Assembly (NCBI RefSeq): GCF_035581365.1
Contig: NZ_CP141590.1
Coordinates: forward strand, 682,001 to 746,000
Direction of reading: 5' to 3'
Origin: Tsuneonella sp. CC-YZS046
GTDB taxonomy: Bacteria; Pseudomonadota; Alphaproteobacteria; Sphingomonadales; Sphingomonadaceae
Length of the DNA: 64,000 bases
Part shown: in pieces, positions 8,618-13,783 of the stretch
Layout: each line of letters opens with the position of its first letter
Position numbering within the stretch: the stretch's first letter is position 1
Notes under the pieces: generated by a model
The model's input: only the letters and a program-made list of their open reading frames with translations
Databases searched by the model: none
Told to the model about the DNA's origin: nothing
Translations under genes and position numbers: made by a program

Positions 8618-9562
8618 ATGAACTTGCCGGGGGACTCATCCATTGAAACGGCTGATGCCGGGCAGATTGCATACGCAAATCCCCGATCCCACTCGATTCT
8701 GAGTGATGGGCGCCGGCTGAACGTTCTCGAATGGGGAGATCCGGCCAGGCCTGCGGTCATGCTGATCCACGGATTGCGCGATCACGCGCGAAGCTGGGAC
8801 TGGATTGCGAATGAACTAGCCGCCGATTATCATGTGTTCGCGCCCGACCTGCGCGGCCATGGCGATAGCGATTGGGCAGGCGCCGGCTCCTACGGGATCG
8901 CGAACTATATCATCGATCTGGCCGATATCATGGACGCGCTGGGGCTGGAGCGGCTCGCCCTGGTGTGCCACTCGCTCGGCGGGGTTCTCGGCCTGCGCCT
9001 CGCGGCTGCTTTTCCGGAGCGGATCGGCGCCTTTTGCGGGATCGAATGCATCGAGCTTCCCATCGTGCGGGATGACCAGATCCACCCCACGCCTTTCCCC
9101 GTGAGGCTGAGGGGATGGATCGATGAGGAACGCAAGCGCCGGGCGAGACTGCCGCGCAGCTATTCCTCCCTTGCTGCGGCGACGGAGCGAATGCAGCAGG
9201 AACAACCGCTGCTGGACCATCAAACGATCATGCATCTCGCCCGGCACGCCATCGTCACCAATCCCGACGGCTCCGTCCGCTGGAAATTCGATCCGGCCGT
9301 TCGCCCCCGTGCCCCCGAGGATGCGAAAGGTCATGATCTGGACGACATCCTGGATGCCATCTCGTGCCCTGTGCTGCTGGCCTATGGGGACGCAAGCTGG
9401 ATTCCCATTCCCTCCGAGAAGCGTCTGGCGCGCTTGCGCGACCATCGTGTAGTAACCTTCGCCGGAGCCAGCCACTGGCTCCATCATCAATGCCGAGAGG
9501 ATTTCCTGCGCGAAACGCGCGAGTTTCTGAAATCCCGTTTTGAAAGCCCAGATCATGCGTGA
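8618..9562 (+). CDS. alpha/beta-fold hydrolase
   Basis: A 314-residue hydrolase with the oxyanion segment LIHGLRDHARSWDW, the nucleophile elbow CHSLGGVLG, and a late catalytic His in FAGASHWLHHQ. An in-frame extension back to 8534 exists, but ATG 8618 follows GGGAGCTTGAGAAAACC and gives a normal N-terminus. Its stop overlaps the thiolase start by 8 bp, so the two genes were translated together. The group includes esterases and C-C bond hydrolases; together with a thiolase it could release an acyl product for beta-oxidation. Specific chemistry unknown. Confidence 0.85.
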   Translation: MNLPGDSSIETADAGQIAYANPRSHSILSDGRRLNVLEWGDPARPAVMLIHGLRDHARSWDWIANELAADYHVFAPDLRGHGDSDWAGAGSYGIANYIIDLADIMDALGLERLALVCHSLGGVLGLRLAAAFPERIGAFCGIECIELPIVRDDQIHPTPFPVRLRGWIDEERKRRARLPRSYSSLAAATERMQQEQPLLDHQTIMHLARHAIVTNPDGSVRWKFDPAVRPRAPEDAKGHDLDDILDAISCPVLLAYGDASWIPIPSEKRLARLRDHRVVTFAGASHWLHHQCREDFLRETREFLKSRFESPDHA

Positions 9563-10759
9563 AGCCGCCATCGTATCCACCGCCCGCACCGCCATCGGCC
9601 GCGCCCAGCGCGGCGCCTTCAACGATACGGATGCTCCCCAGCTGACCGCCCATGTCGTCAATGCCGCGGTCGAGCGCGCAGGCATCGATCCCGCGCGTAT
9701 CGAGGATGTGGCGATGGGCGTGGCGGTGCAGTGGGGCACGCAGGGCAACAATCTGGGCCGCACCACCGTTTTCGCCGCGGGGCTTCCTCTCTCGGTGCCC
9801 GGCACGTCGCTTGACCGCAAATGCGCCTCGGGCCTGACCGCCATTGCCTTCGCCGCGCGCGGGATCATCGCCGGGGACATGGATGTGGCGGTCGCGGGCG
9901 GGGGGAATCGGTGTCCCTGACCCGCAACAATCATGCGCCGAATTTCCGTTCCCAGCCGCAGGTCGTTATCGACCATGTTCCCCATGCCTATATGGCGATG
10001 ATCGAAACCGCCGAAGTGGTCGCGGAACGCTATGGCATCAGCCGGGAAGCGCAGGACGAATATGCGCTGCAAAGCCATCAGCGCGCCGCCGCCGCTACGG
10101 GCGCGGGCAGGTTCGCGGACGAGATCGTGCCGATCACCGTCCGCAAGAACATCCTCGAAAAGGATGGCACCGTATCCGGCGCGGAGGAAGTGACGCTCGC
10201 GCAGGACGAGGGCATCCGCCCGGATACGACGCTCGAAGGCTTGGCCAAGCTCAAGCCGGTGTGGAAGGACGGCGCCCTCATCAAGGAGGGGCGTAATGTC
10301 ACCGCCGGGAATGCCAGCCAGCTTTCCGACGGCGCTTCCGCCCAGGTGCTGATGGATCGCGAGACGGCGGAGCGTGAAGGGTTGCCGATTCTCGGGATTT
10401 TCCGGGGTTTTCAGTCTGCCGGCTGCGCGCCCGAGGAAATGGGGATCGGGCCGGTCTTCGCCATCCCGAAGCTGCTGGACCGCGCCGGACTTTCCATCGA
10501 CGATATCGGCCTTTGGGAAATCAACGAGGCATTCGCCAGCCAGGTGATCTATTGCCGCGACAAGCTTGGCATCGACCCCGACAAATTCAATGTCAACGGC
10601 GGTGGCATCGCGCTGGGGCACCCCTTCGGCATGACCGGAAGCCGCATCACCGGACATGCCTTGATCGAAGCGAAGCGGCGCGGCGTGCGCTACGCCGTGG
10701 TGTCGATGTGCGTGGCGGGGGGCATGGGGTCCGCCGCTTTGCTGGAGATTCCGGGCTAG
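9555..10759 (+). pseudogene. thiolase (acetyl-CoA acyltransferase) with a -1 frameshift
   Basis: The thiolase is split across two frames. From ATG 9555 the first part contains the nucleophile Cys about residue 90 (DRKCASGL) and runs off-frame at a run of six G at 9900-9905. The second frame resumes with ESVSLTRNNHAP and contains GGIALGHPFG and CVAGGMG, the other active-site blocks. Families at this point read AGGVESVS, so one base (the T of a GTG) is missing next to the homopolymer. Either the gene is inactive or this is a sequencing error; everything else is intact and about 400 residues long. It would cleave 3-oxoacyl-CoA to acetyl-CoA. Confidence 0.85.
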
Positions 10760-10920: not shown

Positions 10921-10928
10921 AAAGAGTT
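10921..10928. repeat. left target-site duplication AAAGAGTT
   Basis: Eight bases directly outside the left inverted repeat, repeated exactly at 13776-13783. An 8-bp duplication is the usual size for the IS1595 family. Confidence 0.9.
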
Positions 10929-10951
10929 GGCGATTATAGCGTTTACAAACC
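10929..10951. repeat. left terminal inverted repeat
   Basis: Twenty-three bases beginning GGCGATTATAGCG that are the exact reverse complement of 13753-13775. It forms the transposase recognition end of the element. Confidence 0.92.
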
Positions 10952-10990
10952 CACACGATTCCGGTAGAGAAATGGGCAAGGAGCAATTCC

Positions 10991-11971
10991 ATGTCCGTTC
11001 TCTCTCATCCCCGCTTTCACGACGAAGCCGCCGCCTTCGAATATCTGGAAAGCATCGTCTGGGCCAATGGCGTCGTCTGCCCGCATTGCGGTGTAGTCGG
11101 CGGTCGGGTCTACAAGCTGGAAGGCGTTGTTCATAACACCCGTAAGGGCGAGCGCGCTGGCAATGTCCGCTACGGCCTCAAGAAGTGTGGCGAGTGCCGC
11201 AAGCAGTTCACCGTGAAGGTGGGCACTGTGTTCGAACATGCCCGCCTGCCCCTGCATATCATGCTCCAGGCCGTTCACCTTATCATGTCGAGCAAGAAGG
11301 GCATCAGCGCCCACCAGCTCCACCGCGTTCTGGAAATCAGCTACAAGGCGGCGTGGTTCCTCGCCCACCGTATTCGTGAAGCCATGCGCTCTGGCGATCT
11401 TGCCCCGTTCGGCGGCAACGGTACCATGGTCGAAGTCGATGAAACCTACATCGGCCACCAGAAGGGCAAGCCGGTCAAGAAGGGTGGCGGCCACAAGATG
11501 AAGGTGCTGGCGCTGGTGGATCGTGAGACCGGCAAGGTTCGTTCGTTCACCGACCCCAACCTGACCGCCAAGGACATTCACCCGATCCTGCGCGCCAACA
11601 TCGCCAAGGAAGCGCGCCTGATGACGGACGAAGCCCGGCTCTACTGGAATGTCGGCAAGGAGTTTGCCGAGCACAACCGCGTCCTGCATGCCGGTTTCGA
11701 GTATGTCCGCAAGGGCCAGCCCGAAATCCATACCAACACGGTCGAAGGCTACTTCTCAATCTTCAAGCGCGGCATGCGCGGCATCTACCAGCACTGTGGC
11801 GAGCAGCACCTGCATCGCTACCTTGCGGAGTTCGACTTCCGCTACAGCAACCGGGAAGCCCTTGGCTGCAACGACAGCGACCGCGCCACTGCGGCGCTGA
11901 CCGGGATTGTCGGCAAGCGGTTGACCTATACAGCAACTAACAGCGCAGAAGGTGTCCGCATCGAAGCTTGA
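10991..11971 (+). CDS. IS1595-family (ISXO2-like) DDE transposase
   Basis: A 326-residue transposase. An N-terminal zinc ribbon is formed by CPHCG and KKCGECRKQF, a region that resembles a helix-turn-helix follows (GISAHQLHRVLEISYKAAW), and the catalytic domain has EVDETYIG, a second acidic residue in MTDEARLYW and the final HTNTVEGYFSIFK region. All expected catalytic blocks are present and the reading frame is intact, so it is probably active. It starts 40 bp inside the left repeat, after AGAAATGGGCAAGGAGCA. Confidence 0.93.
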   Translation: MSVLSHPRFHDEAAAFEYLESIVWANGVVCPHCGVVGGRVYKLEGVVHNTRKGERAGNVRYGLKKCGECRKQFTVKVGTVFEHARLPLHIMLQAVHLIMSSKKGISAHQLHRVLEISYKAAWFLAHRIREAMRSGDLAPFGGNGTMVEVDETYIGHQKGKPVKKGGGHKMKVLALVDRETGKVRSFTDPNLTAKDIHPILRANIAKEARLMTDEARLYWNVGKEFAEHNRVLHAGFEYVRKGQPEIHTNTVEGYFSIFKRGMRGIYQHCGEQHLHRYLAEFDFRYSNREALGCNDSDRATAALTGIVGKRLTYTATNSAEGVRIEA

Positions 11972-12088
11972 GAAGAGGTATCGCAGCCGGTGGCGGACTA
12001 AATCGCGAAAACCACGGAAAACCGCCAAAAATTAGTCGATTCACAACGCTTTTTGGCCATGCTACCCTTCTGATAACCGGAGTGCTGC

Positions 12089-12943
12089 ATGACCACCGAA
12101 CGTGTCACGATTCAGGTAGAATCCAACATCGGAGAGGATGGACCTCTCACGGTGTTCGACACGCTCGACCAGTTCAAGGATGCGTTTGAGCTACTGACTG
12201 CTGCGATTTCGCAAGAGCCGGGAGGCGAGAAGATTCGCTGGCGGCTAGAACACCTATCCAAGAATTCTCCCGCCACCGTGACTGCTGTCGCATACACTGA
12301 TGACCCCGAAGTCGTAGCAGGCCCGCTAGTTCATCGCGGTAAGCAGCGATTCTCGCGCGATATGGCTGCGCTCCGGGAGGGGGGCTCAGTGTCGCCATGG
12401 CTTCGCCAGAAGTCCTCCGTCGCTAAGCAATTTCTGCGTCGCAACCTCAATGGGGTTGGGAAGACGGCAATTGTTCTTGAGGAAGACGCCCCCCAAACCA
12501 TCTTGGTTGAACGTTCGGCCAGGGCTAGTTTGAAGTCTCTTGAACGCGCCGAGGCCGCTGCTGAAACTGAAGATAAGAGCCATTCTGAATTTGGGGTGAT
12601 TGACGCCCATGTCGGCCGAACCGACACCTACCACGGCAAACCTGCGCTCTACATCAAGGATAGATTGAGCGGGTCGCTTGTTCCTTGCGTCTTGAGTGAC
12701 GACCTGGCCGCTAAGGTGGGGCCCGCGCATAGTTGGGCTGACGCTTGGACGAACAAGCGTATCCGCGTTAAGGGTCGAATATATTACGACCGGGATGGCC
12801 AAATTTCGCGGGTCAGTGCGGTAGACATGGAAGATGTGTCGCCGCGAGATGTAAATTTGAAAGAGCTACGCGAAATCGACCTGTTAAGCGGAAAATCCCC
12901 AGTCGAGCATCTCGATAAGTTGTGGGGGTATTCCGATGACTGA
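12089..12943 (+). CDS. passenger protein of unknown function, partner of PIN gene
   Basis: A 284-residue protein I do not recognise. It is hydrophilic, with no membrane segment. The C-terminal third alternates short strands (KRIRVKGRIYYDRDGQISRV) in a way that resembles an OB-like or small beta-barrel domain. Its last codons overlap the start of the PIN-domain gene by 8 bp (12936), so the two are translationally coupled, as in many antitoxin-toxin pairs. At 284 residues it is larger than a classic antitoxin. Base composition is lower in GC than the flanking catabolic genes. An antitoxin role is inference only. Confidence 0.75.
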   Translation: MTTERVTIQVESNIGEDGPLTVFDTLDQFKDAFELLTAAISQEPGGEKIRWRLEHLSKNSPATVTAVAYTDDPEVVAGPLVHRGKQRFSRDMAALREGGSVSPWLRQKSSVAKQFLRRNLNGVGKTAIVLEEDAPQTILVERSARASLKSLERAEAAAETEDKSHSEFGVIDAHVGRTDTYHGKPALYIKDRLSGSLVPCVLSDDLAAKVGPAHSWADAWTNKRIRVKGRIYYDRDGQISRVSAVDMEDVSPRDVNLKELREIDLLSGKSPVEHLDKLWGYSDD

Positions 12944-13436
12944 CCGCAAAAAGGTGTATTGGGACGCCTGCGCGTGGCTCGGTCTCTTGAACGGGGAAAC
13001 GGACAAGGCGCAAGAACTCGAAGTTGTTTGGGAGAAGGCCAAGCACGGTGAGATTGAGATCTGGACAAGCGCTTTCTGCATTGCCGAAGTCTACAAGGTA
13101 AAATGCGAGGGTGGAAAAACTGGCCTATCCCCGGAGAATGACGACAAAATCGACGACCTGTTTAATCAAGATTGGGTCTACATTGCACAAGTCGATTTGG
13201 TCATTGCTCGGCTCGCGAAGACACTGCTTCGGTCCCAATCCAAATTGAGCAAGCCAAGCGACGGCATCCATCTTGCGACTGCGATTCAGTGGAACGTCGA
13301 TCAACTCCACACTTGGGATTCTAGCGATCTGCTCGGTATTGTTTGCAACCGTGCAGACGGGCTTCCATTGGAAATCTGTAAGCCGTCCATGATTGACGGA
13401 GAAAACCTCTTCAACCGAGAAGGAGAGGGAAATTGA
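12936..13436 (+). CDS. PIN-domain ribonuclease-like passenger
   Basis: A 166-residue PIN-domain protein, the fold of VapC-type toxins and other metal-dependent RNases. The acidic active-site residues appear in order: Asp10 (YWDACAWL), Glu51 (IAEVYK), Asp109 (PSDGIHLATA) and Asp128/Asp131 (HTWDSSDLL). It overlaps the upstream unknown gene by 8 bp, and its stop overlaps the TTG start of the next small gene. It would cleave RNA in the cytoplasm if active. Its place inside an intact insertion element suggests an addiction or transposition-associated role, which is inferred. Confidence 0.82.
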   Translation: MTDRKKVYWDACAWLGLLNGETDKAQELEVVWEKAKHGEIEIWTSAFCIAEVYKVKCEGGKTGLSPENDDKIDDLFNQDWVYIAQVDLVIARLAKTLLRSQSKLSKPSDGIHLATAIQWNVDQLHTWDSSDLLGIVCNRADGLPLEICKPSMIDGENLFNREGEGN

Positions 13437-13567
13437 ACGACCGGAAACCCCAGCTCGACAAGTTCAAGGAAGCGGCGCGCGACCTGGAGTGCGACGACGA
13501 CGAGAAGCACTTTGACGAGCGGATGAAGAAGCTGGTGAAGCAGAAGCCGGTCAAAAAGCCGGAATGA
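13433..13567 (+). CDS. small charged passenger protein (44 residues)
   Basis: A short gene starting at TTG 13433, with GAGAAGGAGAGGG just upstream, overlapping the PIN stop by 4 bp and itself overlapped by the next ATG at 13564 (ATGA). The product is strongly charged (KFKEAARDLECDDDEKHF, then a Lys-rich end) and likely helical. The precise overlaps on both sides support it as a real gene in the passenger operon. Function unknown. Confidence 0.65.
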   Translation: MNDRKPQLDKFKEAARDLECDDDEKHFDERMKKLVKQKPVKKPE

Positions 13568-13761
13568 CTTGGCCTATGGCAAGTGGGCTTGTCGGCACAC
13601 TGCTATCTGCCGCCTTCCTGATCGCCGTCGCGGATGACCCACGATTTTTCAGATTTTCACGTCGCACATCCCGCACATTGGGCAATGTGGTTCTGGGTCT
13701 GATTGCCATGGCGGCTTTGGTTTTGGTCGTCGCCGCGGTCACAACGCTGCGTGGTTTGTAA
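13564..13761 (+). CDS. small membrane passenger protein (65 residues)
   Basis: Two hydrophobic stretches (residues about 5-23, SGLVGTLLSAAFLIAVA, and about 40-60, VVLGLIAMAALVLVVAAV) separated by a basic loop, so probably a two-helix inner-membrane protein. It begins in an ATGA overlap with the 44-residue gene. Its TAA stop (13759-13761) lies inside the right terminal inverted repeat, so the gene runs to the very end of the element. Function unknown. Confidence 0.65.
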   Translation: MTWPMASGLVGTLLSAAFLIAVADDPRFFRFSRRTSRTLGNVVLGLIAMAALVLVVAAVTTLRGL

Positions 13762-13775
13762 ACGCTATAATCGCC
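13753..13775. repeat. right terminal inverted repeat
   Basis: Exact reverse complement of 10929-10951. It also supplies the stop codon of the last passenger gene. Confidence 0.92.
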
Positions 13776-13783
13776 AAAGAGTT
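13776..13783. repeat. right target-site duplication AAAGAGTT
   Basis: Direct repeat of 10921-10928, marking the insertion target of the IS1595-family element. Confidence 0.9.

Follow-up and report, generated by a model that had tools for sequence, protein, structure and literature searches.

What kind of unit is the element at positions 10929-13775 of the window (the whole 64,000-nucleotide stretch of Tsuneonella sp. CC-YZS046 analysed here), and do the four genes that follow its transposase belong together? The sequence-only reading had proposed an intact, mobile IS1595-family unit rather than a remnant, carrying a four-gene cargo that looked like a functional module. The first proposal is borne out below, while the second has to be divided: two of the genes form a conserved pair, one is part of the element itself and one is private to it. 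The features discussed are as follows.

10921-10928, no strand: left target-site duplication, AAAGAGTT (from the sequence)
10929-10951, plus strand: left terminal inverted repeat of 23 bp, GGCGATTATAGCGTTTACAAACC (perfect match with the right end)
10991-11971, plus strand: IS1595-family transposase (Tnp), 326 aa (Pfam, NCBIfam, motif positions)
12089-12943, plus strand: P284, gene 1 of cargo slot A (open reading frame; predicted C-terminal OB fold)
12936-13436, plus strand: PIN-domain nuclease (VapC-like), gene 2 of cargo slot A (Pfam PIN, alignment, VapC 7by2)
13433-13567, plus strand: CP, the constant small charged protein, 44 aa, TTG start (relatives, dN/dS, model)
13564-13761, plus strand: TM65, a 65-aa membrane peptide, cargo slot B (hydropathy)
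13753-13775, minus strand: right terminal inverted repeat of 23 bp (perfect match with the left end)
13776-13783, no strand: right target-site duplication, AAAGAGTT (from the sequence)

The element is complete at 2847 bp and its transposase is intact. The inverted repeats are perfect over 23 bp, the tool's figure of 25 bp arising because TT/AA in the flanks pair too. The ends start with GG and the duplication measures 8 bp, both as in the IS1595 family. The transposase matches DDE_Tnp_IS1595 (PF12762, 6.6e-32) and NF033547 (8e-55), in each case over the curated cut-off, and combines DDE-type motifs (VDET, MTDE, NTVEGYFSIFK) with an N-terminal zinc ribbon (Zn_ribbon_IS1595, PF12760, 9.3e-12; motifs CPHC and CGEC) of the sort present in all IS1595 groups but IS1016 (PMC8101967). 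On every feature testable here the element belongs to the IS1595 family. Along the four cargo genes, successive open reading frames overlap by 8, 4 and 4 nt; the overlaps noted earlier are real, and they begin at the first cargo gene rather than at the PIN gene. The cargo is indeed poorer in GC, at 0.545 against 0.60 for the transposase and 0.63 for the window. In the upstream neighbourhood, a thiolase-like gene (window 9540-10759) seems split over two frames (ORFs 9540-9920 and 9821-10759), possibly by a frameshift or a sequencing error.

The source genome (3.35 Mb, one contig) speaks to mobility. A second copy, at C1:2973876-2976722, is 100% identical over all 2847 bp, and the element is therefore not due to chance. 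This copy has no target duplication, and its insertion cuts an NnrU-like gene at codon 179; because the other half of that gene gave no match anywhere in the genome, a deletion or rearrangement probably occurred beside the copy. Two identical copies, one of them with a perfect duplication, indicate by comparison that the element has moved recently. A third, diverged element, which has ends and a target-site duplication (AAACCTTA) of its own, is situated at about C1:2215442; it has CP and otherwise unrelated cargo, and it was here that CP was first noticed.

About 80 related elements from Alphaproteobacteria were compared. Searching 150 genomes of the family for the transposase led to 39 fetched loci. 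An automatic end search set the limits of 33 elements there, 1.8-3.9 kb long, and in 25 of these the duplication matches at 8/8 positions; ORF listing of the transposase-found elements examined revealed extra genes that are very unlike from one element to the next. An alignment scan for CP across 84,980 species genomes returned 160 relatives, of which the best 80 were kept, from Sphingomonadales, Rhodobacterales and a few Rhizobiales and Caulobacterales. Among these best 80 of 160, a same-strand IS1595 transposase lies upstream of CP in 65 loci, a contig edge cuts most of the remaining 15, and in 43 of the 47 elements that could be delimited the matching ends are flanked by an exact 8-bp duplication. 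Together with the two identical copies in the source genome, these duplications show that ends of this kind are in use, as the sequence-only reading had supposed. An empty insertion site was sought in 25 relatives and none was found; the intergenic sequence is unconserved.

Loci found through CP cannot alone prove that CP is constant, and the unbiased test is the transposase-found set: class A members from L048 on were found through CP, which leaves nine unbiased elements. CP is present in 9/9 intact clade-A elements found through the transposase, the lone exception, L034, having only a partial transposase. Differences among CP genes fall on the three codon positions as 513/300/1319, with a dN/dS of about 0.13 (165 pairs, 54 sequences), a pattern by which CP is a real protein under purifying selection. 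That CP is a mere DNA anchor and no gene is disfavoured by the concentration of differences at third positions. The model predicts two short helices around an acidic turn, followed by a basic tail. On a quick tree of 79 transposases with 25 open forks, the class of small ORF changes three times, the minimum possible, against a shuffled mean of 19.2, establishing at this level of comparison that CP and the transposase are inherited together. Because CP tracks the transposase tree and is shared by many unrelated cargoes, the comparisons assign it to the element and not to the cargo. IS1595 members have been described with a single transposase gene (PMC8101967).

Sister IS1595 subgroups (L015-L047) seem each to have a small charged ORF of their own. 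That of class B reads MPKKxK..AGELSP; that of class C lies on the opposite strand (EDEVLKRMLxTPPKPHK); and that of class D directly follows the transposase (LDMPFxEALERF) and is sometimes fused to the N-terminus of a cargo protein. In 6/9 loci from other families the class C ORF has an IS1595 transposase no more than 1.5 kb away. A search of the class sample with the class-D peptide, run without a positive control, gave 0 matches. Since sister subgroups have small ORFs of their own and the class C ORF sits near the transposase in other families too, an arrangement with a constant small ORF may be general across subgroups.

Around this constant part, the cargo changes. Elements L121 (Henriciella barbarensis) and L126 (H. 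marina) occupy the same site, with target-site duplication AATATTTC and flanks that are 91-92% identical; pairwise DNA comparison gives 92% identity for the transposase and 92.6% for the CP core, and no similarity for slots A and B, slot A holding P284-PIN in the former and a DUF3800-cluster protein in the latter. The same pattern of like frame and unlike cargo recurs in Sphingobium (L057/L060/L069) and in Erythrobacteraceae (L075/L082/L088/L093, sharing a site with duplication TAGAGAAA). Such comparisons establish a common frame used as a mobile unit and the replacement of slots while the frame is kept. The similarity blocks are bounded by the transposase stop codon, the CP core and the inner margin of the right end, limits that fit recombination inside the transposase and CP genes. 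Over the 79 transposases, cargo labels require 25 changes on the tree and P284-PIN alone requires nine, so that cargo and transposase trees, whose agreement had been proposed as a check, do not agree. TM65 has no relative among the fetched loci beyond this element's own copies. Slot B often holds a small membrane-type ORF (15/37 clade-A elements with a slot B over 250 bp, by simple hydropathy), and these proteins are mutually unlike in sequence.

The best explanation, and one that we consider probable, is that this is an autonomous IS1595-family transposon in which a fixed frame holds two slots of exchangeable cargo, slot A being occupied here by P284-PIN. Its layout would run from the left end and transposase through slot A to a CP core of about 100 bp, and then through slot B to the right end. 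Slots would be replaced by homologous recombination between resident and incoming elements, with about 1 kb of transposase and about 100 bp of CP as the arms of homology. CP itself would be an accessory of the element, a partner or regulator of transposition, rather than an antitoxin for one cargo. The four genes as a single module can thus be set aside, as cargoes unrelated to one another share CP, and TM65 is confined to this element; what stands of that proposal is P284-PIN.

In P284 an alpha/beta region at the N-terminus is followed by a C-terminal OB fold, predicted at residues ~163-254. It has no family match in Pfam, NCBIfam, PADLOC or PHROGs, and its sequence met only helical chance matches among solved structures. 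The AlphaFold (AF2) model, built on 10 sequences, has a pLDDT of 79. Its OB-fold likenesses include SSB, PriB, RPA and the anticodon-binding domains of AsnRS and AspRS, a match (Z about 8) that in a predicted model reflects a shared common fold and says nothing on ligand or function; for the N-terminal part the structure comparison, made with the whole protein, lists no known fold. The PIN protein matches Pfam PIN (PF01850, 2.3e-6, over cut-off), residues D10, E51, D109 and D128 are invariant in 10 relatives, and its sole significant solved relative by sequence is VapC 7by2.

The two genes travel together. Among 385 genomes of the class searched with P284, six besides the source genome gave a match, with PIN adjoining in 6/6. 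PIN by itself, used as the query against viral contigs, gave 14 loci, with a P284-like gene directly upstream in 14/14. On the Methylobacterium plasmid pMOC1, transposase, P284, VapC and CP lie in that order between element ends with an 8/8 duplication, the PIN gene there being named VapC toxin by NCBI. As to occurrence outside such elements, which the sequence-only reading had named as telling against it, P284-PIN does occur there: four chromosomal pairs (L138-L141) have no IS1595 transposase and no recognisable ends. Among the pairs in contigs classified as viral (L160-L173), 10/14 have no IS1595 transposase in the fetched stretch. By these associations P284 and PIN are a genuine two-gene unit, present in other IS1595 elements, chromosomes and viral contigs, and since the pair is also found outside IS1595 elements, it is a wider system that they have picked up.

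The pair is most likely of a toxin-antitoxin or abortive-infection-like kind. PIN would cut RNA, perhaps tRNA, the target of many VapC proteins; OB-fold P284, made first from the overlapping gene, would restrain or direct it. Cargo of this type could benefit the host by defence, or the element by addiction. Type II VapBC systems likewise have a PIN protein with four invariant acidic residues and an overlapping gene directly upstream (by 8 nt in the window), and VapC 7by2 is the nearest solved sequence to this PIN. Unlike theirs, the partner here is 246-313 aa long, is predicted to contain an OB fold and has no match among the antitoxin families of Pfam, NCBIfam or PADLOC. CP as the antitoxin of PIN is disfavoured, as CP accompanies unrelated cargo and stand-alone P284-PIN pairs give no CP match.

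Other readings of the locus have to be weighed against the slotted transposon. The plainest would make it an ordinary passenger-carrying IS1595 element in which CP and cargo are mere riders, taken up by chance on one or a few occasions, with no mechanism of exchange. Such elements are documented, as the sequence-only reading had stated for some IS1595 subgroups; examples are MTnSag1 and the lincomycin-resistance element tISCpe8 (PMC5704250), and insertion sequences with passengers even have a name, tIS (PMC7986276). However, frames that are nearly identical yet hold unrelated cargo at a shared site with a shared duplication, far more cargo changes than frame changes on the transposase tree, and purifying selection on CP despite unrelated neighbours make chance capture improbable. 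We take it as unlikely, though less so, that CP is functionally part of the cargo, serving whatever occupies slot A as a general antitoxin, as a chaperone or as a translation-coupled regulator. CP does overlap the stop codon of forward cargo genes (in the window and in L069), stays beside cargo where the transposase is missing (L098, Fic-like; L117; and L124, P284-PIN), and has a counterpart in another subgroup whose small sequence is fused to the cargo N-terminus (L040, L041, L046, L047). Against this, a good deal of the cargo in slot A is encoded on the opposite strand (for example in L012 and L089), the stand-alone pairs at L138-L141 show no CP match, and CP tracks the transposase rather than the cargo.

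Two further proposals concern what the pair does and how far the arrangement reaches. P284-PIN may be a defence effector pair in which P284 serves as a sensor or as an RNA- or ssDNA-binding guide and not as an antitoxin; P284 is big for an antitoxin, and its predicted OB fold resembles those of SSB, PriB, RPA and the AsnRS and AspRS anticodon-binding domains. The pair nevertheless lacks a PADLOC match, its gene order and overlap are as in type II toxin-antitoxin operons, and NCBI's name for the pMOC1 gene points the same way; we find a guide role for P284 rather doubtful. A broader claim falls somewhat short of an even chance in our judgement, namely that a minimal-transposon platform for cargo exchange, composed of a constant transposase and a dedicated small protein, swaps toxin and defence cassettes and that P284-PIN is a new defence or toxin-antitoxin system spread by it. 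On such a platform, sister subgroups would use different small proteins, and the small gene would serve partly as a homology anchor.

What else the slots hold bears on the slotted transposon as well. Pfam matches among 106 cargo ORFs include DUF3800 (9) and SocA/Panacea (4), along with PemK, ParE, PIN, NYN, HNH, GIY-YIG, Schlafen AlbA_2, Bro-N, IrrE peptidase and methylases; many cargo ORFs have no family match. With the same processing, PADLOC lists 144 families for the 106 cargo ORFs and six for 88 flanking host ORFs, which match housekeeping Pfam families; near-duplicate models inflate these counts (36/144 listings come from two L018 genes), and the contrast is to be read as a difference in kind, not a rate. 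As judged from such matches, toxin-antitoxin and defence-type families are abundant in the cargo. P284, PIN, CP and TM65 themselves have no PADLOC match, a result that weakens the notion of a catalogued system and not that of work in defence.

The IS1595 element L018 carries both PD-Lambda-5 genes (E 3e-178 and 2e-116), which are absent from the window element. L037, an IS1595 element of 3.9 kb, encodes an N6 methylase-type protein of 807 aa together with a small protein resembling a ParE/RelE-type toxin. For L090 we do not claim a pAgo, since the match of its 526-aa ORF to a 1121-residue model is confined to residues 28-451 of the model.

The nearest described elements, tISCpe8 and MTnSag1, share an IS1595 DDE transposase, inverted ends of ~25 bp, an 8-bp duplication and extra genes inside (PMC5704250). 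Theirs is a resistance gene, and they are mobilizable, whereas here there is a constant second small gene around which mostly toxin- or defence-like cargo is exchanged. Tn7-like transposons are also mobile with variable cargo that includes many defence systems (PMC8649781); the elements here are much smaller (1.8-3.9 kb), with one DDE transposase, IS1595 ends and 1-3 cargo genes. A constant second gene, in-place exchange and a toxin/defence bias in IS1595 were not found in the literature searched, where the combination of exchangeable slots and a constant small gene seems not to have been described, the founding 2009 family paper lying outside that search. If the platform is real, tiny transposons easily dismissed as insertion sequences would be a path of fast turnover for the toxin-antitoxin and defence genes of Alphaproteobacteria, and their constant ends, transposase and CP would give a handle for discovery, anything between transposase and CP being a candidate system. 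Cargo exchange is open to direct test in the Henriciella pair and similar cases, and P284-PIN is a concrete uncharacterised candidate.

A further cargo of related IS1595 elements is a tRNA cassette. It lies on the minus strand of L007 (3630-4266; C1:2216629-2217265 of the source genome), L011/L118, L077 and, in part, L052. The cassette comprises a Leu-type tRNA, a winged-helix-like ORF of ~150 aa and a tRNA-Thr(CGU)-like gene that is poorly paired and 100% identical in three elements. The Leu-type tRNA has an anticodon loop, CTTTAAA, that is invariant in four, with covariation in the stem; its predicted anticodon, UUA, would read the UAA stop codon, and the cassette is possibly a mobile ochre suppressor.
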